From positions 124,001 through 188,000 of the forward strand of contig JAAEPF010000024.1 in NCBI GenBank assembly GCA_024222295.1: a stretch of DNA of 64,000 bases, given 5' to 3'. The DNA comes from Actinomycetes bacterium (GTDB taxonomy: Bacteria > Actinomycetota > Acidimicrobiia > Acidimicrobiales > Microtrichaceae). Shown piece after piece: positions 18,831 through 29,027 of this stretch. Both the position numbers and the translations under genes were made by a program. The notes below the pieces were generated by a model. The model saw only the letters and a program-made list of their open reading frames with translations. It made no database searches and was not told the origin of the DNA. Position 1 is the stretch's first letter. The number at the start of each line of letters is the position of its first letter.

Positions 18831-19052
18831 CAATGTGCCTTTCGTCCTTAGTGGCATCGCCGGGTTCGGGGAGCCTCCGGGAGTCTGCCAGCCAAGCCGT
18901 TGCGTTGTCGACTATTGGCGAGAGTCGAATGCGCGGACTCGGCGAGAGCAGGGTCTGCACCGGGGGCGAGCACGGCGTCGTGCGAACCGTATCGGCTGGC
19001 CGAGGACGTGGATCACACCGCTGACCACGGCGGTAGTTACGCTCGGATCGCA
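18831..19052. promoter_or_regulatory. Divergent intergenic region, multicopper oxidase / AMP-binding gene
   Basis: These 222 bases hold no convincing gene. On the plus strand TACGCT (19038-19043) lies 9 nt before the ATG at 19053 and may give a very short leader. No clear operator is visible. Confidence 0.35.
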
Positions 19053-20588
19053 ATGCTCAGCGAGGCTGTCGCGCAAGCGGCCCACCGACATGGCCACACC
19101 CCCGCGGTGATGGTCGACGGCTCCGGGGCGACCTGGGGCGAGGTGCACTTGGCGTCCGAGGCCCTTGCCGCCATGCTCTCAGCGCGAGGCATCGGTGCGC
19201 CCCAAGTGGTTGGCCTCGCCATGCGCCCCGGACCGATGTGGCTCGTCGCGGCCACCGCTGTCGACCGTACCGGCGCAGCGTTTGCCGGGCTGTCACCCAT
19301 CGCCACCGCCCCGGAGCGAGCGGCCATGGTGAAGAGCATTGAACCGGCGTTGGTGCTGGCGGAACCGGATCTCGCCGACGGCCTTCCCCTTCGCACACAG
19401 GTTGTGGTGCTCGAGAGCGACGGTGCGGGACTCGACTCGATGGGGGTCACCAAGGCGGTTGCCGCACTCGGAGCCACCGGCGAGGCCGCCGCGCCGGGCG
19501 CCGTCGCCAGTCATGGGCGCACCGACGAGCGCCGCTACGCCATCTGCTTCACCTCGGGGACGACGGGCGATCCCAGGCCTGCGGAGTACCGCGTGGGAGC
19601 CGCACGCGCAGTCGAGCGCATCGACCTGGGCAGCTCGGCTGCGCAGTCGGGGGGCAGCGGGTTCGAGATGATCTCGTCGACCCAGTTCGCACACGTGGGG
19701 TTCACCCTGAAGGTGCCCTGGTACGCCCGGCTCGGGTGCACGATGCACGTGATGCCGCGCTGGCGTGCCGATGATGCGATCGAGCTGGTGGCCGGACGCC
19801 ACATGGCGACGCTGGGGGTGGTCGCCCCCCAGCTCGCGCTGATCCTCGCGTCGGACCTGCTCAACGAGCGCGACCTGTCGGCGCTGCGGCTGGTGATAGC
19901 CGGTGGGGCGCCGTCGCCCCCTGCGCTCATAGCGGAGGCACGCAGTCGCCTGGGCGTCGACTACTCGATCAGGTACTCCTCCACGGAGTCGGGAGGGGTC
20001 GGTCTCTCGGCGCTTGTCGACGATGACAACCCCGACGCGGTCGGCACGATCGGCGTGCCCCGTCCGGGAGTGCAGGCCCGGGTGGCCGAGCCCGACGGTT
20101 CACCGGCTCCCGCCGGTGAGGTGGCAGAGTTGCAGATCCTCTCGCCCGCCACCATGACCGGCTACCTCGGTGCGCCCGAGGCCACTGCAGCGGCCTTCAC
20201 CGCTGACGGGTGGCTGCGCACGGGAGACCTGGCGCTCGTGCGCGAGGACGGCCGGTTCGTGCTGGCCGGGCGCGGCAGCGACATGTACATCCGTGGCGGC
20301 TACAACGTGCACCCCGAGGAGGTCGAGGCCGTATTGGGCACACATCCCGCAGTGGCGGCGGTTGCAGTCGCCGCCCGCCCCGATGACGTGATGGGCGAGG
20401 TGGGGGTGGCTGTGGTCGTGCCTGCGGCGGGAAGCACACCTCCGACGCTCGAGCAGCTCCGCGCCCACGCAGCTGGTGAGCTCGCCCGCCACAAGCTGCC
20501 CGAGGGCTTGGTGGTCGCGTCGAGCCTGCCACTCAACGACGCGGAGAAACTCGACCGCAGGCGGTTGGCTGAGATGTTGGGCTCGTGA
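19053..20588 (+). CDS. AMP-binding (class I adenylate-forming) enzyme
   Basis: This 511-residue protein has the acyl-CoA synthetase/adenylation fold, activating a carboxylate with ATP. The P-loop is FTSGTTGDPRPAEY, in which the usual PKG is replaced by PRP. The A5 motif YSSTESGG, A7 WLRTGDLA, hinge GRGSDMYIRGGYNVHPEEVE, and C-terminal catalytic Lys in NDAEKLDRRRL are present. Activity is therefore likely but the altered P-loop may change ATP handling. Its stop overlaps the start of the prepilin peptidase gene (GTGA), so the two are translated together. The natural substrate is unknown; context with lipid-type enzymes suggests a fatty or aromatic acid. Confidence 0.85.
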   Translation: MLSEAVAQAAHRHGHTPAVMVDGSGATWGEVHLASEALAAMLSARGIGAPQVVGLAMRPGPMWLVAATAVDRTGAAFAGLSPIATAPERAAMVKSIEPALVLAEPDLADGLPLRTQVVVLESDGAGLDSMGVTKAVAALGATGEAAAPGAVASHGRTDERRYAICFTSGTTGDPRPAEYRVGAARAVERIDLGSSAAQSGGSGFEMISSTQFAHVGFTLKVPWYARLGCTMHVMPRWRADDAIELVAGRHMATLGVVAPQLALILASDLLNERDLSALRLVIAGGAPSPPALIAEARSRLGVDYSIRYSSTESGGVGLSALVDDDNPDAVGTIGVPRPGVQARVAEPDGSPAPAGEVAELQILSPATMTGYLGAPEATAAAFTADGWLRTGDLALVREDGRFVLAGRGSDMYIRGGYNVHPEEVEAVLGTHPAVAAVAVAARPDDVMGEVGVAVVVPAAGSTPPTLEQLRAHAAGELARHKLPEGLVVASSLPLNDAEKLDRRRLAEMLGS

Positions 20589-21379
20589 GCGACGTGGTCG
20601 CGCTGGTTGCATCCCTGGTCGGCCTGGTGATCGCCTGGCTCTTGACGGTGCCGCTGTTCCGATTCAAGGAAATGCGGCCGATGACTCCACGCGACGTGTC
20701 CAACGAAGCGGGCCTCGAGATCCGCGCTGTCGTGCGCCATGCCCGGTGTCCGAAGTGTCACCGCGACCACGGCCCGGCCGACGTGCTGCCCGTCGTGTCG
20801 TGGCTGCGTGGCTGTCCCGGGTGTGGGCTGCGTCTGCCTGCGACGGTCGCGGTGTTCCAGTTGGCGCTACCGCTCGCCGCGGCCATCACGGCGATCGTGT
20901 TCGACCCGGTGTGGGTGGTGGTGCTCTTCGTGTGGTTCGCGGTGGTGGTCACCTCGGTTGCCGTTGTGGATGCCCGGGTGTGGCTGATTCCGTGGTGGGC
21001 GCCGTGGGTGGGATCCGCTGTCGGGGCGGTGCTGATGGTGATTGCGTCGCTCTCGGTGGACGACACCCAGCGCCTGGTGTGGGCGTTGGCCGGGGCTGTC
21101 GGTGCGTTCGTCGTGTTCTTCGTGCTCTGGTTCGTGGCGCCGGGAAGGCTGGGTTTCGGCGACGTGCGCCTGTCGTTCATGATCGGGCTGTTCCTGGGCT
21201 GGATCGACCCACTTCTCGTCGTGTGGGGACTGCTGTTCGGCAGCGTGGTCGGGCTGATCGTCGGCCTGTGGACCCTTGTGGTGCGCAAGGGCGGGCATTT
21301 CGCGTTCGGTCCGGCACTGGGCATCGGCGCGTTGTTGGCCGTGTGGCTGCAGGACTACCTGCTGGTCTCGGCGGGGTAG
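20585..21379 (+). CDS. A24 family prepilin peptidase
   Basis: This 264-residue membrane protease resembles PilD/GspO-type prepilin peptidases that cut and often methylate type IV pilin-like precursors. After a first helix it has the cytosolic zinc module CPKC...CPGC. The two catalytic aspartates lie in VVDARVWLIP and GFGDVRL (GxGD motif). About eight hydrophobic segments are seen. The length matches bifunctional enzymes. It is coupled to the AMP-binding gene by a GTGA overlap, and no pilin, PilB or PilC gene is in the window, so its substrate must be encoded elsewhere, unless the secreted protein just downstream is one, for which I see no prepilin cleavage motif. Confidence 0.88.
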   Translation: MSDVVALVASLVGLVIAWLLTVPLFRFKEMRPMTPRDVSNEAGLEIRAVVRHARCPKCHRDHGPADVLPVVSWLRGCPGCGLRLPATVAVFQLALPLAAAITAIVFDPVWVVVLFVWFAVVVTSVAVVDARVWLIPWWAPWVGSAVGAVLMVIASLSVDDTQRLVWALAGAVGAFVVFFVLWFVAPGRLGFGDVRLSFMIGLFLGWIDPLLVVWGLLFGSVVGLIVGLWTLVVRKGGHFAFGPALGIGALLAVWLQDYLLVSAG

Positions 21380-21523: not shown

Positions 21524-23095
21524 ATGGGGGTTCGTCGTGTACCCACCTCACGGTGGATACGTCGTGGCGCGGTTGCTGCCCTGTGCGCAATCGGGCTGAG
21601 CACCCTCGGCACCGCTGTGACCGCCGGCGCCCAGCAGGATGACGCGTCAGGCAAGGTCGTTCGCGGGGGCGCCAACGCGGCCGCGGACTCCATGGCCTTC
21701 AACATCGCCAGCGCCGGAGCGTCACTCGGATGGACGTTCGGCCGCTCGCTGGCGGGCTACCAGGACCTGACCACCACCGGAGAGGGCAGGGGGGTCGACC
21801 TCGGTGCCCTTGCCTCGCTGTTCGCCCTGCCGCAGTGCGATGGTGAACTCCCGCCGGCGCTCGACACCGACACGCTTCCCGAACTCACGGTGGCCGAATC
21901 GTTCGGGCAGGGTCCACAGGGGCCATTCGAATCCGAGGTCAACCTGCCCCAGATGGCAGAAGACAAGTCCTCGCCCACGGCTCTCGGCACCCAGAGCGCG
22001 CAGAGCACGAACGATCGCGCAGAGGGCTCGACAACCACGCTCACGCAGGACTTCGGCTTCTTCAGGGTCAACGACGCAAGCTCACGGGCGTGGGTGTCGT
22101 TCGAGGACGGCGTGCGAACGGCCCACGCCGTGTCGCGGGCCGACCGCATCGAGATCCTCGGACAGGTCGTGTTCGTTGATCCGGTGTGGTCCGCCACCGC
22201 GAAGTCGGGTGCCGAGGAACTCGCCGAGGGTTCCTTCACCTTCCGTGGCGCATCCGTGTACGGCAACTGGTTGTCGGGGCGGGCGCTGGAGCAGAACCTC
22301 GACCTGTTCAAGTGGATCAACGAGACGTTCCTTGGTCCGCTCGGGCTCCGCATCTCCTTTCCAGAGGTGACCACCCCCGAGATCGGCGACGGGGTGACAG
22401 TCACCCCGCTCAAGGTCGACCTGATCGATTCCCCGTTGGCAAAGGACCTGCTGTTCCCACTGCTCGACACGGACCTGCTGGAGACCTACCGCGAGGACTC
22501 GGTCAGTGAGGACTGCCGCCGGGAGACCTTCTGGACCGTGATCGACAACCTGCGCTACGCGCTCGGGGGGCGGGGTGCGCTGGAGACCCATATCGGAGGC
22601 GTCGAGGTAACCACCGACGACACCGATTACTCCGCGGATCAGTTCGTATTCGGCGATGGCGGGGAGCCGGGCCCCCCTACTGAACCGGTCGTGCTGCCGC
22701 CTCTGCAGGAGCCGCCCCCCACAGTGCGTGACGGCTTCGAGTTCGGCGACGGATCCGACGACATCGGCTCGTTCGACGAGTTCGACGACTTCGACAGCGG
22801 TGACGGCGACTTCTCCGGCGGCTTCGACTCCGGTGGGGACTTCGAGGCCGGGATCACCGAGGCGGGCCTGTCCGAGCAAGCACCGGCCGAGGCCGAGGTG
22901 GCACAGGAGGAGCCCGAGGATGTTGTCGACAGCCGGGAGGTCGCATCAGGCGCACAACCGGACGGGTCGGCGAGCAACGCGGCAGCGGTGACCCTCGGCA
23001 TCCTCGCGCTGCTTGGCGCGATGGGCCTGTCACTTGGCGACAGGTTCATGGGCATCCGCGCCAAGCACGTCATCGACGAGCCGGGTGACTCGTGA
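21524..23095 (+). CDS. Secreted, C-terminally anchored protein of unknown function
   Basis: I do not recognise this 523-residue protein. It has a signal peptide with an Arg-rich start (MGVRRVPTSRWIRRGAVAAL) ending near TAGAQQ. A folded region follows (about 40-375) with several Trp/Phe-rich strands and a few Cys. Then comes a Pro-rich stretch, an acidic Asp/Phe/Gly-rich linker (about 400-450), and a single C-terminal helix before a short basic tail. It would sit outside the cell, anchored at its C-terminus. It lies 34 bp ahead of the solute-binding protein gene and may act with the transporter, for instance as an accessory receptor. No LPXTG-like motif is present. Confidence 0.75.
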   Translation: MGVRRVPTSRWIRRGAVAALCAIGLSTLGTAVTAGAQQDDASGKVVRGGANAAADSMAFNIASAGASLGWTFGRSLAGYQDLTTTGEGRGVDLGALASLFALPQCDGELPPALDTDTLPELTVAESFGQGPQGPFESEVNLPQMAEDKSSPTALGTQSAQSTNDRAEGSTTTLTQDFGFFRVNDASSRAWVSFEDGVRTAHAVSRADRIEILGQVVFVDPVWSATAKSGAEELAEGSFTFRGASVYGNWLSGRALEQNLDLFKWINETFLGPLGLRISFPEVTTPEIGDGVTVTPLKVDLIDSPLAKDLLFPLLDTDLLETYREDSVSEDCRRETFWTVIDNLRYALGGRGALETHIGGVEVTTDDTDYSADQFVFGDGGEPGPPTEPVVLPPLQEPPPTVRDGFEFGDGSDDIGSFDEFDDFDSGDGDFSGGFDSGGDFEAGITEAGLSEQAPAEAEVAQEEPEDVVDSREVASGAQPDGSASNAAAVTLGILALLGAMGLSLGDRFMGIRAKHVIDEPGDS

Positions 23096-23129: not shown

Positions 23130-24881
23130 ATGAAGGACAGGCTGTTTCGCGGCTACGGACCCCTGATCGGGTTCACGGCCCTGTTCCTGGCCGTGGTGCT
23201 GCTGGTGCCCAGCAAGGCGCCAGAGGAAGTCGACCCCGAGGGCGGTGACGTCTCCGGCGTGTTGGACATGATCGGAGAAGACGGCAGCGAGCTCCGCTAC
23301 GACGAGGACGGCAACCTCATCGACCCCGAGACCGGAGAGGTCGATCCCACGGTCGCCGGTGCCGCTGACTCGACCGGTTCGGGCTCCTCGGGTTCGACGG
23401 GAGGCTCGGGCAGCGGGTCATCCGGCGGGTCCGGCTCCGGGGGCGGCAGCGGGACTGGCAACGGCGCGGCTGGTGGCAACGCTGCCGGTGGCGCCAACAA
23501 GGGCCCCACGAAGGTGGCCGGATGCGGCGGGGTACAGGTCAAGGGCGACCCCTACTCGCCACCTTGTGTTCAGTTCTCGGGTTCCAACGGAGGTGCAACC
23601 CATCGCGGTGTCAGCGACTCGGAGATCGTGGTCACCGTTCGCATCGATGGCTTCGACAGCGGCCTGGTGGACGCCGTCACCAAGGCCGCCAGCACCGCAG
23701 GCAAGATCCCGAGTGAGCCCCGCGAGAAGGTGGAGCGCACCATCACGGGGCTGGTCGAGTACTTCAATCAGCGCTTCCAGTTCTACGGCCGCAAGATCAA
23801 GATGGTCATCTACGACGGCAAGGGCGACCCGCTCAACGAGATCATCGGCAACGGCCAGGAGGGTGCACGCGCCGATGCCGTGAAGGTGGCCAAGGAGATC
23901 GGTGCGTTCGCCGACGTGTCCGCCATCACAGCGCCATATGCGTCGTCGCTTGCCTCCGAGGGCGTCATCAATGTCGGCGCCCCGTACGTGCCGCGTGACT
24001 GGCTGACCCAGCGCCGCCCGTACTCCTGGACGCCCCTCACCGACTGCACAACCGTGGTGGAGGCCACTTCGTCCTACTACGCAACGAAGATGTTCGGAAA
24101 GCCTGCGGTCAATGCCCAGGGAGCCCTGAAGGACAAGCCCCGCCGGCTCGTCGTGGTTGCTCCGGAAAACAAGGAGTACCAGGACTGCGTGAGTGCAGGC
24201 ATCGCCATGCTCAACCAGCGCGGCGCCGGTTCGGAGCTGGTGGGTCGCTATGAGTACAAGATCGACGTCAACAACACAGGCACGGCTCGTGACGTGGCGA
24301 CCAAGCTCGTGGCCGACGAGGCCACCACCCTGATGTGCGGCTGTGACCCTGTCTTCCTCAACTACCTGGCCCAGGAGATCCGCGCGGCCAACATCAGCCC
24401 GGAGATGATCATGGTCGGCGTCGCACTGGTGGACACAGACCTGGTCGGCCAGCTCTTCCAGCAGGATGTCTGGCGCAACGCATTTGGTATCTCCTTTCAG
24501 GGCGCGACCGCACCACAGCGCTCCACGATCGCCTACGCCGCCTACAAGGCGGTGCGACCCGATGAGCCATCGATCACGGTCGACATCCTCTACAACCAGC
24601 TCTACATGCTCGCGATCGGCATCCAGATGGCCGGACCCGACCTGAATCCCCTGAGCTTCGAGAAAGGCATGTTCTCCTACCCGAAACGGTCAGGTCCCTA
24701 CGGCAGCTGGGGATTCGGCCCCAACGACTACAGCACCTCCGATGACGTCCGCGAGGTGTTCTGGAACCCGGGAGCCCAGTCGGTGTTCAACCGGGCCGCC
24801 GGTGCCTACCAGAATCCCAACGGCGACGCTCGCTTCCCGATCGGCAAGTGGCCGGGCGGCCAGCCCCGGGCAGCGGGGTGA
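23130..24881 (+). CDS. Membrane-anchored ABC solute-binding protein (LivJ-like)
   Basis: This 583-residue protein has an N-terminal membrane helix (about 10-28) without a lipobox, an acidic spacer, a Gly/Ser linker (about 78-125), and a type I periplasmic binding-protein domain (about 145-560). The domain shows typical elements such as KIKMVIYDGKGDP, ADVSAITAPYASSLASEGVINVG, RRLVVVAPEN and TVDILYNQLYMLAIGI. It binds an extracellular solute for the fused transporter encoded next, whose GTG start overlaps its stop. Using a membrane helix and flexible tether instead of a lipid anchor is uncommon. ATG 23130 has GGGAGG just upstream. The ligand is unknown; the family includes amino acid and amide binders. 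Confidence 0.85.
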   Translation: MKDRLFRGYGPLIGFTALFLAVVLLVPSKAPEEVDPEGGDVSGVLDMIGEDGSELRYDEDGNLIDPETGEVDPTVAGAADSTGSGSSGSTGGSGSGSSGGSGSGGGSGTGNGAAGGNAAGGANKGPTKVAGCGGVQVKGDPYSPPCVQFSGSNGGATHRGVSDSEIVVTVRIDGFDSGLVDAVTKAASTAGKIPSEPREKVERTITGLVEYFNQRFQFYGRKIKMVIYDGKGDPLNEIIGNGQEGARADAVKVAKEIGAFADVSAITAPYASSLASEGVINVGAPYVPRDWLTQRRPYSWTPLTDCTTVVEATSSYYATKMFGKPAVNAQGALKDKPRRLVVVAPENKEYQDCVSAGIAMLNQRGAGSELVGRYEYKIDVNNTGTARDVATKLVADEATTLMCGCDPVFLNYLAQEIRAANISPEMIMVGVALVDTDLVGQLFQQDVWRNAFGISFQGATAPQRSTIAYAAYKAVRPDEPSITVDILYNQLYMLAIGIQMAGPDLNPLSFEKGMFSYPKRSGPYGSWGFGPNDYSTSDDVREVFWNPGAQSVFNRAAGAYQNPNGDARFPIGKWPGGQPRAAG

Positions 24882-27800
24882 ACACCGTGCCGCCCGGCGG
24901 TACGCCGGTCGCTCCGACCGATCCCCCCCAGCCTGCGAGCGACCCCGACGAATTGGTCGACGGTGGGTGGGTCTGGCTGCCATCCGGGGCGGCTCGCTGG
25001 GCCGCAGCCACAGCCGTGGTCCTGGCTGCGGCCTGGCTCACTGCCTCGCTTGTGCTGCCCCGCGGGCTTCCGCCGGGCATCGTGTTGCTCGGGTTGGTCT
25101 ACGGGTCGACCACCGGGCTCACCGCTGTGGGACTCATCCTGGTGTGGCGCGCGAACCGGGTCATCAACTTCGCCAACATCGCCATCGCAGGGCTGGCCGG
25201 CACGGCGGTCGTGCGGGCATTCCTGCAGTGGGACTTCCCGTGGTGGCTGGCGCTTGTAGCCGCGCCGCTAGCCGGTCTGGGGGTAGGGGCCCTGGCGGAG
25301 GTAACCGTGATCAGGCGGTTCGCCAACGCGCCGAAGCTGGTCCTCACCGTTGCGACGATCGGACTCGCCCAATTGCTGGGCGGTCTCGAACTGGTCATGG
25401 CCGAGACGCTGTACCCGGACGTGCCGCTGATCGTGACCCCGTTCGAAACCCCGCTGTCGTCGTGGCAGTTCAATCTCGGGCCGGTGAAGCTCAGCGGCAA
25501 CGACATGCTGCCATTGCTGGTCGTGCCCGTGATCGTCGGCGCGCTCGCCTGGTTCATGCAGCGAACCTTGGCCGGCCAAGCCGTTCGCGCTGCCGCGGAG
25601 AACACCGACCGTGCACGCCTGCTCGGCATTCCTGTGAGGCGGCTCGTCACCCTGGTATGGGCTCTCGCCGGCCTGCTGGCGGCGGCCACGCTGGTCCTGA
25701 GGGCACCGGCACTCGGAATCAGCCCGTCGGCGGCGATGGGCCCCACCATTCTGCTACCGGCGCTGGCCGCGGCAATCGTCGCGCGAATGGAGTCGATGCC
25801 GGTCGCGTTCGCCGCCGCAATGGTGATCGGCGTCATCGAGCGCACCGTGAGCTGGAACAGCGAGACGCCATCGTTCAACACGGTCGTGGTGCTGGCCCTG
25901 ATCCTCGGAGCACTCCTGTTCCAGCGGCGGGGGGCATCGCGTGCATTCGATTCCGATGGCGGCTGGAAGGAAGCGGAGCTGATAGCGAAGCTCCACCCAC
26001 GGATCGCCAAGCTGAGCCTGGTCAGGCTGGCCAAGGCGGGTCTGTTGGTCCTCGTGGTTGCCGCGGCGGTGCTGGTGCCGCTGCTGTTGCAGCCGGGGGC
26101 CTCGTTCACCGCGTCGATCATGGCCGTGTGGGCGATCGTCGGTGTGAGCCTGGTGGTTCTCACCGGTTGGGGTGGCCAGATCAGCCTCGGCCAATTCGGC
26201 ATCGTCGGCGCGGCGGCCATGGTCGGCGGCAACCTGATCAGCCACTGGAACACCGACCTGTTCGTGATGCTCGCGGGAGCCACGACGGCGGGGGTGTTGG
26301 TTGCGCTACTGATCGGGCTGCCGGCGTTGCGCATCCAGGGGCCGTTCCTCGCAGTGGTGACCCTGGCGTTCGCGGTGATGCTCGACGAGTTCGTGCTCAA
26401 CCCGACCGTCTTCCCGGCCATCGTGCCCGACTCGATTGCCCGCCCGGTGTTGTTCGAGCGCATCGACCTCGGCTCCGAGCGCGCAATGCTCTACTTCTCC
26501 CTGGCGGTGCTCGCCTTCGCGGTCGTTCTCACCCTCGGTGTCCGCAAGTCCCGCTCCGGCCGCCTGTTGCTCGCCAGCCGCGACAACCTCAAGGCGGCCG
26601 AGGCGGCCTCGGTGCACTCGATCTGGATCCGGCTGAGCGCGTTCATGTTCGCAGGCGCCCTCGCGGGCCTCGCCGGCGGGTTGCACATGCTCGTCAACAA
26701 CGGTGCGCGGGCGGGTTCCTACACGCCGGCGATGTCCGTGGACGTTTTTGCCCTCACCACGATCGGCGGTCTCGGCTCGGTTCCAGGCGCCGTGTTCGGG
26801 GCGGGCGGTGGCCGCGGCCTGCAGGACGCGAGCGACATCCTGCGACTGACCGCCTCGGGTCTCGGCGTGCTGCTGGTGCTGTGGCTTGTCCCATCGGGCG
26901 TGGCCGGCATCGCAGCGAGGGTTCGCGACCGGCTCGTGCGCCCCCTCGCGGCGCGCCATGGCATGGACCTCGAGGGTCGGCCGGTGGGGCCGGCCAAGCC
27001 AGTCGAGGCAAGCCCCAAGGACCGGCCGCCTGAGCCACCGGACACACCGGCACCGCCGGGCCCGGCGACGCCACCACCGTTCGACCCTGCGCGCATCCAG
27101 ACCGTCGGGGCGCCAACCGCCGCTGGCGCGGAAGCGACGGTTCCCGCAGTGGCGACACCCACCGGGGCGGCGGCCAACGGCAACGGTCATCACATGGCCG
27201 CGGCGCCCCTGCTCCAGGGGTCACAACTCCGCAGCGACCCTCCGGCCGCCCTGCTGGCCGCGAGTGGAGTTGACGTGTCCTATGGCCAGTTGCAGATCCT
27301 GTTCGACGTCGCCCTCGACGTCGCCGACGGAGAGATCGTGGCCCTTCTCGGCACCAACGGGGCAGGCAAGTCCACGATCCTCAAGGCCATCTGCGGCCTC
27401 GCTCCGCACAACGGCAAGGTCCGCATCGGCGACGTCGACCTGTCCAACAAGTCCGCCGAGCAGATCGTGCGCGATGGCGTCGCACTGATGCCGGGCGGCA
27501 AGGCGATCTTCCCGACCATGTCGGTCGACGACCATCTCCGCCTGTCCACCTGGACGTTCCGCAAGGACTCCCAGCGGATCGAGGACTCACTCGAGGACGT
27601 CCACCGCCTCTTTCCCGTGTTGTCGCGCCGGGGCAGCCAGCTGGCGGGCGACCTGTCGGGAGGTGAGCAGCAGCAGCTGGCCATGGCGATGACCCTCATG
27701 CTCCGTCCCCGGGTCATGCTCATCGACGAGTTGTCACTCGGGCTCTCCCCGATGATCGTGGCCGCGCTGTGCGACGTGGTGCGGATGATGCGCGACAACC

Positions 27801-28873
27801 GCATCACGATCGTTGTGGTGGAGCAGTCCATCAACGTTGCGCTCACGCTCGCCGAGCGGGCCGTGTTCATGGAGAAGGGCACGGTGCGTTTCGAGGGTCC
27901 CACCCGCGAGTTGCTGGAGCGTCCCGACCTCCTGCGTTCGGTGTTCATCGAGGGTGCCGGAGGTTCGTCCGATGACTCCGACGACGATGATGAGGGAGTG
28001 AGGGCGATCACGTCGATCGACCTCACACGCCTCGAGGCTGCGCCCCACGACGACATCCCCGTCGAGGAGCGCGATCCGATCCTGGTGTGCTCCGACCTCA
28101 CGAAGCGTTTCGGTGGAGTCAATGCCCTCAGCCATGTCGACCTGGAGGTGAGACCCGGCGAGATCGTCGGACTGATCGGTCAGAACGGTGCCGGCAAGAC
28201 GACACTCATGGACTGCATCTCCGGGTTCCACAGCGTGGATTCCGGCAGGGTGTTGTTCCGCGACACCGACATCACCGACTGGGCTCCCAACGAGCGGGCC
28301 CGTGGTCGGCTCGGACGTTCGTTCCAGGAGGCGAGGCTGTTCCCATCGCTCACCACCAGTGAGGTGATCGCGGTGGCGTGCGAAAGGACTGTGCTCAACC
28401 GCTCGCTGGTGGCCGACGCCACCCGCCAGCCCGCGTCGTACGTGGCCGAGGAGAAGACCCTCGAGAAGGTCAGGGGTCTGGTCGACATGCTCGGTCTCGA
28501 CCCGTACGCGAACACGCCGGTGGCGGCGCTTTCCACGGGCACCCGGCGCATCGTGGAACTCGCCTGCCTGCTGGCCGAGGAACCGATGCTCATGTGCCTG
28601 GATGAGCCCTCCGCAGGCGTGGCCCAGAAGGAGACGGAGGCACTGGGCCCGCTGCTGCGCCAGATCTGTGAGCACACCGGTGCCGGGATGCTCGTGATCG
28701 AACACGACATGCCGTTGCTCGCCGGGCTTTGTGACCGGCTCGTGGCGATGGAGCTCGGCGAGATCCTGGTGCAGGGCCCCCCTTCGGAGGTGCTGGACCA
28801 TCCTGCTGTGATCGCTGCCTACCTCGGCACTGATGCAGCCGCGATCAACCGCTCGGGAGCAACGGTGTCCTGA
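24878..28873 (+). CDS. Four-domain fused branched-chain-amino-acid-type ABC transporter (LivH-LivM-LivF-LivG)
   Basis: One 1331-residue chain carries the whole membrane and ATPase part of a HAAT-family importer. In order: LivH-type permease (about 67-347), LivM-type permease (about 386-687), a Pro/Ala-rich linker (about 688-787), a LivF-type ATPase (about 788-1027; Walker A GTNGAGKST at 825, signature LSGGE at 926, Walker B VMLIDE), an acidic linker (SSDDSDDDDEG), and a LivG-type ATPase (about 1066-1327; Walker A GQNGAGKTT at 1101, Walker B LMCLDE). The LivG signature reads LSTGT (1218-1222) instead of LSGGQ. The start GTG overlaps the binding-protein stop. Two- and three-part fusions occur in actinobacteria; a full four-part chain is notable. 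Confidence 0.92.
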   Translation: MNTVPPGGTPVAPTDPPQPASDPDELVDGGWVWLPSGAARWAAATAVVLAAAWLTASLVLPRGLPPGIVLLGLVYGSTTGLTAVGLILVWRANRVINFANIAIAGLAGTAVVRAFLQWDFPWWLALVAAPLAGLGVGALAEVTVIRRFANAPKLVLTVATIGLAQLLGGLELVMAETLYPDVPLIVTPFETPLSSWQFNLGPVKLSGNDMLPLLVVPVIVGALAWFMQRTLAGQAVRAAAENTDRARLLGIPVRRLVTLVWALAGLLAAATLVLRAPALGISPSAAMGPTILLPALAAAIVARMESMPVAFAAAMVIGVIERTVSWNSETPSFNTVVVLALILGALLFQRRGASRAFDSDGGWKEAELIAKLHPRIAKLSLVRLAKAGLLVLVVAAAVLVPLLLQPGASFTASIMAVWAIVGVSLVVLTGWGGQISLGQFGIVGAAAMVGGNLISHWNTDLFVMLAGATTAGVLVALLIGLPALRIQGPFLAVVTLAFAVMLDEFVLNPTVFPAIVPDSIARPVLFERIDLGSERAMLYFSLAVLAFAVVLTLGVRKSRSGRLLLASRDNLKAAEAASVHSIWIRLSAFMFAGALAGLAGGLHMLVNNGARAGSYTPAMSVDVFALTTIGGLGSVPGAVFGAGGGRGLQDASDILRLTASGLGVLLVLWLVPSGVAGIAARVRDRLVRPLAARHGMDLEGRPVGPAKPVEASPKDRPPEPPDTPAPPGPATPPPFDPARIQTVGAPTAAGAEATVPAVATPTGAAANGNGHHMAAAPLLQGSQLRSDPPAALLAASGVDVSYGQLQILFDVALDVADGEIVALLGTNGAGKSTILKAICGLAPHNGKVRIGDVDLSNKSAEQIVRDGVALMPGGKAIFPTMSVDDHLRLSTWTFRKDSQRIEDSLEDVHRLFPVLSRRGSQLAGDLSGGEQQQLAMAMTLMLRPRVMLIDELSLGLSPMIVAALCDVVRMMRDNRITIVVVEQSINVALTLAERAVFMEKGTVRFEGPTRELLERPDLLRSVFIEGAGGSSDDSDDDDEGVRAITSIDLTRLEAAPHDDIPVEERDPILVCSDLTKRFGGVNALSHVDLEVRPGEIVGLIGQNGAGKTTLMDCISGFHSVDSGRVLFRDTDITDWAPNERARGRLGRSFQEARLFPSLTTSEVIAVACERTVLNRSLVADATRQPASYVAEEKTLEKVRGLVDMLGLDPYANTPVAALSTGTRRIVELACLLAEEPMLMCLDEPSAGVAQKETEALGPLLRQICEHTGAGMLVIEHDMPLLAGLCDRLVAMELGEILVQGPPSEVLDHPAVIAAYLGTDAAAINRSGATVS

Positions 28874-28914
28874 GCGGTCGGGTCGTGCTCCTGATCGGCT
28901 GCCGCGGGAACACG

Positions 28915-28946
28915 CAGAAGGCCCACCCGAAAGGGTGGGCCTTCTG
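28915..28946. terminator. Strong hairpin terminator between ABC gene and tRNA-Ala
   Basis: A perfect 14-bp stem (28915-28928 with 28933-28946) is closed by a GAAA tetraloop. It follows the ABC gene stop by about 40 bp and also lies just past the 3' end of the convergent tRNA, so it can serve both strands. Confidence 0.85.
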
Positions 28947-28950
28947 TCGT

Positions 28951-29027
28951 TGGTGGAGGCGATGGGAGTCGAACCCACGACCTCCTCGATGCGACCGAGG
29001 CGCTCTAGCCAGCTGAGCTACGCCCCC
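28951..29027 (-). tRNA. tRNA-Ala (anticodon CGC)
   Basis: The minus strand folds as a 77-nt tRNA with an encoded CCA end. The acceptor stem is GGGGGCG/CGCCTCC with A73, the D arm is GCTC/GAGC, the anticodon stem CCTCG/CGAGG encloses GTCGCAT, and the T arm is GTGGG TTCGACT CCCAT. The anticodon CGC reads GCG. The G3:U70 wobble pair, the main alanine identity element, is present. The tRNA serves a codon that is common in this GC-rich genome. Confidence 0.96.

Follow-up and report, generated by a model that had tools for sequence, protein, structure and literature searches.

The DNA analyzed here (hereafter, the window) is a 64,000-nucleotide stretch of contig JAAEPF010000024.1, from assembly GCA_024222295.1 of a member of the Microtrichaceae (Actinomycetota). 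On its plus strand lies an open reading frame (ORF) whose product carries two permease domains and two ATPase domains of the Liv type in one chain. These domains are designated H, M, F and G, after LivH, LivM, LivF and LivG; hyphens join domains of one chain, and a plus sign separates two genes. The features of this gene, and the gene directly upstream of it, are as follows.

23130–24881, plus strand: substrate-binding protein (Peripla_BP_6), directly upstream of the importer; its stop codon and the start codon of the importer overlap (GTGA)
24878–28873, plus strand: putative importer core H-M-F-G, a single ORF of 1331 residues; the same architecture occurs in 14 further genomes of the family
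24998–25060, plus strand: extra N-terminal hydrophobic helix, ca. residues 41–61 (Kyte-Doolittle scan)
25058–25933, plus strand: LivH-like permease, residues 61–352 (BPD_transp_2)
26063–26947, plus strand: LivM-like permease, residues 396–690 (second BPD_transp_2 stretch)
26948–27241, plus strand: M-F linker, Pro/Ala-rich, 98 residues (from domain boundaries)
27242–27955, plus strand: LivF-like ATPase (Pfam, NCBIfam, motifs)
27350–27376, plus strand: Walker A motif of the LivF-like ATPase
27653–27676, plus strand: signature LSGGEQQQ of the LivF-like ATPase
27713–27730, plus strand: Walker B motif of the LivF-like ATPase
27812–27829, plus strand: switch residue Gln (VVVEQS) of the LivF-like ATPase
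27956–28069, plus strand: F-G linker, acidic, 38 residues, with an IDL motif (from domain boundaries)
28070–28852, plus strand: LivG-like ATPase with BCA_ABC_TP_C tail (Pfam, NCBIfam, motifs)
28178–28204, plus strand: Walker A motif of the LivG-like ATPase
28529–28558, plus strand: signature LSTGTRRIVE of the LivG-like ATPase
28589–28609, plus strand: Walker B motif of the LivG-like ATPase
28694–28711, plus strand: H-loop VIEHDM of the LivG-like ATPase

No stop codon interrupts positions 24878–28873, and the translation comprises 1331 residues, in which the LivH-like permease, the LivM-like permease, the LivF-like ATPase and the LivG-like ATPase follow one another from the N- to the C-terminus. 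The original prediction, made from the letters of the window, held that all four domains lie in a single unbroken chain with one copy of each permease and ATPase; translation, Pfam and NCBIfam bear out the unbroken chain, and the Pfam and NCBIfam stretches bear out the copy numbers. Pfam located BPD_transp_2 and ABC_tran twice each, followed by the BCA_ABC_TP_C tail, and the best NCBIfam stretches were UrtE/LivF at residues 792–1023 and UrtD/LivG at 1067–1318. Walker A, the LSxG signature and Walker B are kept in both ATPases. The switch residue is Gln in the F-type and His in the G-type ATPase, a division that is usual in LivF and LivG. The furthest in-frame start is the GTG at 24848, and the GTG at 24878 shares 4 nt with the stop of the binding-protein gene. 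This 4-nt overlap recurs in 10 of 16 members of the clade to which the window belongs (defined below); for the remaining six, the closest in-frame importer start lies between a 1-base overlap (locus L008) and 25 bases past the stop. The binding protein itself consists of an N-terminal hydrophobic helix, a Gly/Ser-rich stalk and the Peripla_BP_6 domain. Its sole match in the PDB, 11cu_A (E 0.0047), fell on the stalk region (residues 57–113) and was not used.

Family assignment was made from curated profiles. BPD_transp_2 scored 154.1 bits (cut-off 26.8) over two stretches, the BCA_ABC_TP_C tail on the LivG-type ATPase 32.5 bits (cut-off 25.5), and Peripla_BP_6 on the linked binding protein 38.8 bits (cut-off 31.7); Pfam, the NCBIfam stretches and the catalytic motifs identify one LivF/UrtE-like and one LivG/UrtD-like ATPase. 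The NCBIfam equivalog cut-offs were missed for LivG (275.7 vs. 362 bits) and LivF (255.9 vs. 441 bits), even though two stretches add to each whole-protein score, and also for the urea transporters (UrtE, 283.0 vs. 285.8 bits; UrtD, 279.2 vs. 304.1 bits). LptB (TIGR04406) reached 253.0 bits against a cut-off of 240, but two stretches add to this whole-protein score, and the domains of the permeases and of the binding protein are those of importers. The sequence thus points to an importer of the Liv/Urt-type (HAAT) fold; the LivH-M-F-G label proposed originally is apt for the fold and goes too far as a statement of branched-chain amino acid transport, given the missed cut-offs. The four-part chain might instead work in export or as a membrane ATPase with a regulatory role, since related ATPases bear a major facilitator superfamily (MFS) domain. 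This is very improbable, however, because BPD_transp_2 permeases with a Peripla_BP_6 binding protein directly upstream form an importer combination, one that is typical of ABC (ATP-binding cassette) importers.

The original prediction had proposed searching for the same architecture elsewhere, and it was found in 15 of 33 genomes of the family, at locus L008 from outside the family and in five Frankiales assemblies. The family search covered 33 genomes, with 19 best candidates per genome scored. Matches at E 1e-120 or better were obtained in 26 genomes and none at that threshold in seven; a close relative of the importer system was present in 18 (the window's genome included), and a more distant type with an MFS domain ahead of F and G was the best match in eight. 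The 15 genomes with all four domains in one frame are 15 of the 18 with a close relative; in one of them, G018, the contig ends within G. No judgment was possible for the remaining three: in G026 the contig ends with H-M-F still in frame, in G016 only F-G is present at a contig end, and in G021 the frame breaks across the importer, the binding protein and the next protein upstream (X, described below) alike. In the record L127, from the same contig as L010, all three genes are frame-broken, most simply through indel errors of that assembly. An assembly or sequencing artefact that hides a stop or frameshift between two genes would gain some ground from the many metagenome assemblies among the records and from the broken L010/L127 case. 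It is already close to refuted: the frame is identical in the 15 family genomes and L008, one of the genomes, G005, consists of a single 4661060-base contig, and breaks that hit three genes alike are the pattern of indel errors, not of a split gene. In a plasmid search with P0001, three records matched at E 1e-60, none of which covered 80% of P0001; the plasmid region examined carries no annotated features.

Frame conservation was examined in the linkers of 15 clade members, namely L008 and those from 14 family genomes; G018 was omitted as a near-copy of G017. Linker length ranged from 40 to 140 residues for M-F and from 33 to 90 for F-G, always in frame. Not one in-frame stop occurred in 962 M-F and 697 F-G codons (1659 in total), compared to 43 stops in the other two frames of the same linkers (12 and 11 for M-F, 7 and 13 for F-G), and none of 2000 nucleotide shuffles of either linker was free of stops. 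In a second fused clade (n = 5; see below), the M-F linker had no stops in 379 codons, which 2 of 2000 shuffles equaled; its F-G linker (112 codons) is too short to inform, as 799 of 2000 shuffles were also stop-free. The original description of the linkers as Pro/Ala-rich and acidic is accurate for the window, but the acidity of the F-G linker is limited to the window and a few relatives and is not clade-wide. Read by eye, an [IV]DL motif recurs in the F-G linker of 15 of 15 family members and is absent in L008.

Structure prediction with AlphaFold2 yielded, for residues 41–1240 of the relative L120, a mean predicted local distance difference test score (pLDDT) of 85.2 and a predicted template modeling score (pTM) of 0.84, with linkers below 50. 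All four parts are confidently placed in this model, which fits four parts in one arrangement with flexible tethers; the M-F linker is likely disordered. The fold as a monomer, which had been suggested as a check, is consistent with this prediction. The L120 ATPase domains were matched to 1ji0 (Z 31.3, 237 residues, 2.2 Å), 1gaj (Z 24.3, 231 residues, 2.2 Å) and the two-ATPase chain 8wdb_D of DppABCD (Z 24.5, 474 residues, 6.2 Å). Because ATPase chains fill the structure-match list, the permease part was barely probed, and no claim is made as to the closest fold.

Very probably, the window encodes the complete core (membrane and motor parts) of a Liv/Urt-type (HAAT) ABC importer in one polypeptide that serves a separate, anchored binding protein. 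The basis for this was read from the sequence: the permeases, the ATPases with their motifs, the conservation of the frame and the adjacent binding protein. The original contention that a single chain might make up the core of the transporter is supported. Several observations weigh against this reading. The modeled query was a trimmed relative in place of the window protein, the pTM of that model is no proof of function, and a sequence search of the PDB at E 1 gave no match to the permease part of the window protein. In-frame start codons are present in the linkers of most members, and a Shine-Dalgarno-like (SD-like) match precedes such starts in the M-F linkers of the window, L114, L115, L116, L121 and L122 (6 of the 15 members listed) and in the F-G linkers of L118, L123 and L124. 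Separate parts could still result if the linkers were cut by proteases or if translation also began internally. A chain that is made whole but then cut, or partly initiated internally, at the long M-F linker would yield separate H-M and F-G pieces, such as relatives encode in separate genes; the low model confidence and strong variation of the linkers would also suit this alternative. It is nevertheless judged unlikely. By eye, the linker starts take no clade-wide position, and the M-F linker of L008 has none; moreover, separate pieces would give little reason for the frame to be kept through linkers of 40–140 residues.

If the single-chain importer is accepted, its working may be outlined as follows. 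The chain would be translated whole, with the overlap of stop and start codons coupling it to the binding-protein gene. The channel would be formed by the H-M pair. F would pair with G beneath it, forming two ATP sites at the F-G interface, and the flexible linkers would do no more than tether the ATPases, so that every complex contains one F and one G. The binding protein, presumably anchored at the cell surface through its N-terminal helix and its stalk, would capture the solute and dock on H-M, and ATP binding and hydrolysis by F-G would drive the solute inward. The gene itself would have originated by the joining of an H-M gene and an F-G gene into one frame.

Outside the family, frequencies come from a pattern-based scan (80 loci kept of 95) that favors relatives sharing one of six peptides. 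After removal of duplicate loci, 89 systems were counted in the fetched loci: 21 H-M-F-G, 21 H-M + F-G, 10 H-M + MFS-F-G and 30 MFS-F + H-M-G. Of the remaining seven, three were F + H-M-G and the rest were isolated cases that are odd, truncated or broken. The extra helix before H is found in most untruncated H-M-type relatives (exceptions: L024 and L028) and is missing in most H-M-G relatives. The order LivF-then-LivG, pointed out originally as opposite to the common one, is correct but not peculiar to the window, as it also occurs in the 21 H-M + F-G and the 10 H-M + MFS-F-G systems; other Liv systems of the same genome (contig C2) have G before F. Ca. 57 kb beyond the window importer, on the same contig, lies a further system of Liv type, in which LivF accompanies a three-part H-M-G chain (L131, 6115–10463, contig C24).

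A quick tree (LG+G4, without bootstrap) was calculated from 60 of the 89 rows and 1080 columns. Left out were 23 of the 30 MFS-F + H-M-G rows and L017, L049, L053, L055, L084 and L127, which are truncated, broken or oddly joined. Weak points of the tree are the long branches of L131, L038 and L079, an unsure join of L130–L132, and five rows with unusual letter make-up. The window falls in a clade of 16 fused rows (15 from the family plus L008; support 99) that adjoins L018, a split system, and further H-M + F-G rows. The second fused group consists of five Frankiales metagenome-assembled genomes from one naming series (RYN) and lies near the MFS-bearing row L030; support for this clade with L011 is weak (73.8). 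The H-M-F-G label needed two changes on the 60-row tree, and a constraint uniting all 21 fused rows was rejected (approximately unbiased test, p-AU 5.6e-08). Judged from these sequences, the four-part chain arose at least twice.

Most ABC importers are built up from individual subunits, and the original prediction spoke of four normally separate subunits. That they are one chain here is right; the phrase is overstated for the nearest relatives, which have an H-M gene and an F-G gene. The new step is thus one join, and it is smaller than first claimed, since H-M and F-G fusions, and also three-part H-M-G chains, are already present in relatives. At the junction in the nine split relatives printed (of 21), the stop of the H-M gene and the start of the F-G gene share 4 nt, so the M-F join needs a frame change and not the mere loss of a stop.

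An MFS domain stands ahead of LivF in one frame in both the H-M + MFS-F-G and the MFS-F + H-M-G systems. Pfam, run on eight proteins, found MFS_1 in all five of the MFS-LivF type, and phmmer identified 52 MFS-carrying ORFs (duplicates such as L002/L130 included). Isolates with the fusion include Frankia nepalensis, Parafrankia sp. EUN1f, Yinghuangia soli and Streptomyces nymphaeiformis. The window's own genome has such a system on contig C34 (L130, 7807–14912), in which an H-M gene is followed by the gene of a 1012-residue MFS-LivF-LivG fusion and next by that of a binding protein; the fusion unites a secondary-transporter domain with ABC ATPases. AlphaFold2 gave this fusion a mean pLDDT of 82.0 and a pTM of 0.63; in the model, the domains are well formed and their mutual placement is uncertain. 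An MFS-bearing ancestor is plausible, because the outgroup of the quick tree has MFS-F, as do several of its H-M lineages. Tentatively, two actinobacterial lineages may have made the single-chain importer independently, both from ancestors that may have carried MFS-LivF. The chain would be the remnant of an MFS-ABC hybrid in which the MFS domain was lost and M was joined to F, with one copy per part fixed and each ATPase site separately addressable.

Further upstream of the binding-protein gene lie three genes.

21524–23095, plus strand: protein X, 523 residues, with a signal-like N-terminus and a C-terminal hydrophobic helix, directly upstream of the binding protein
20585–21379, plus strand: putative prepilin-peptidase-like protein (named from its sequence)
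18900–20588, plus strand: AMP-binding (acyl-CoA ligase type) enzyme (Pfam)

Neither Pfam nor NCBIfam matched X at E 0.001. An alignment of 12 X homologues has 39 invariant columns, two of which are cysteines, and X is a possible accessory part of the importer. The run of X, binding protein and importer was found at 13 of 15 family loci and at L008; at L122 and L129 the binding protein is present, and the contig stops before or inside the place of X. A ligase-type gene is upstream at 6 of the 15 family loci (the window, L114, L115, L116, L121 and L126), as is a prepilin-peptidase-like gene at the window, L115, L116, L119, L121 and L126; both are absent in the fetched stretch of, e.g., L117, L118, L120, L123 and L124. 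Since each occurs at only 6 of 15 loci, they are not fixed members of the cassette. That the solute is an acid activatable by the neighboring ligase-type enzyme is only a guess. Just after the importer, on the opposite strand, is a tRNA-Ala gene (anticodon CGC; window positions 28904–29027), and between the two is an inverted repeat that appears terminator-like by eye.

A natural H-M-F-G chain would be a defined heteromeric importer in which a single ATPase site or permease could be mutated without assembly problems, and two independent fusions bear on the assembly of such complexes. That the permease part has no sequence match among solved structures adds to the interest of the chain. No report of an H-M-F-G or MFS-LivF fusion was found by title or abstract start in a literature search whose scope excluded most subscription journals and InterPro. 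The Rhodococcus importer of cholate metabolites, CamABCD, may be linked to this system, which stays a lead. An ABC and an MFS system for cholate or its metabolites are described in passages of three papers that give no domain data (PMC8399759, PMC6498646, PMC7593942). In a Brucella inventory, branched-chain amino acid parts are entered separately as IM, ABC and BP (PMC2821768).

Compared to the known Liv/HAAT importers (E. coli LivKHMGF and the urea transporter UrtABCDE), the window system has the same two BPD_transp_2 permeases, LivF/UrtE- and LivG/UrtD-like ATPases, BCA_ABC_TP_C tail and Peripla_BP_6-type binding protein next door. It differs in having all core domains in one chain, the ATPase order F-G, an extra N-terminal helix, a binding protein with a hydrophobic N-terminal helix, and scores that miss the LivF, LivG, UrtD and UrtE cut-offs. 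The two-gene H-M + F-G actinobacterial relatives (e.g. L012–L016, L018 and L042) have equal domains in the same order and the extra N-terminal helix, and in L012, L013, L014 and L016 a related binding protein is upstream, as at the window; they differ by a stop and a new start between M and F. The H-M + MFS-F-G and MFS-F + H-M-G systems (L130; Frankia, Parafrankia, Yinghuangia, Streptomyces) have homologous H, M, F and G, but an MFS domain precedes F and the core is split over two genes; the three-part H-M-G chain shows the repeated occurrence of long Liv fusions. Full-length single-chain transporters of the ABCB1 type also have four core domains in one chain, and ABCB1 was among the Foldseek matches. 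However, ABCB1 is of exporter type and has alternating transmembrane domains (TMD) and nucleotide-binding domains (NBD) in the order TMD-NBD-TMD-NBD, whereas the window chain has the order TMD-TMD-NBD-NBD and importer-type permeases, and the whole-chain matches were poor, with TM-scores of 0.16–0.34 in the ABCB1 rows listed. The window chain is a new layout of a familiar machine, not a new kind of machine.

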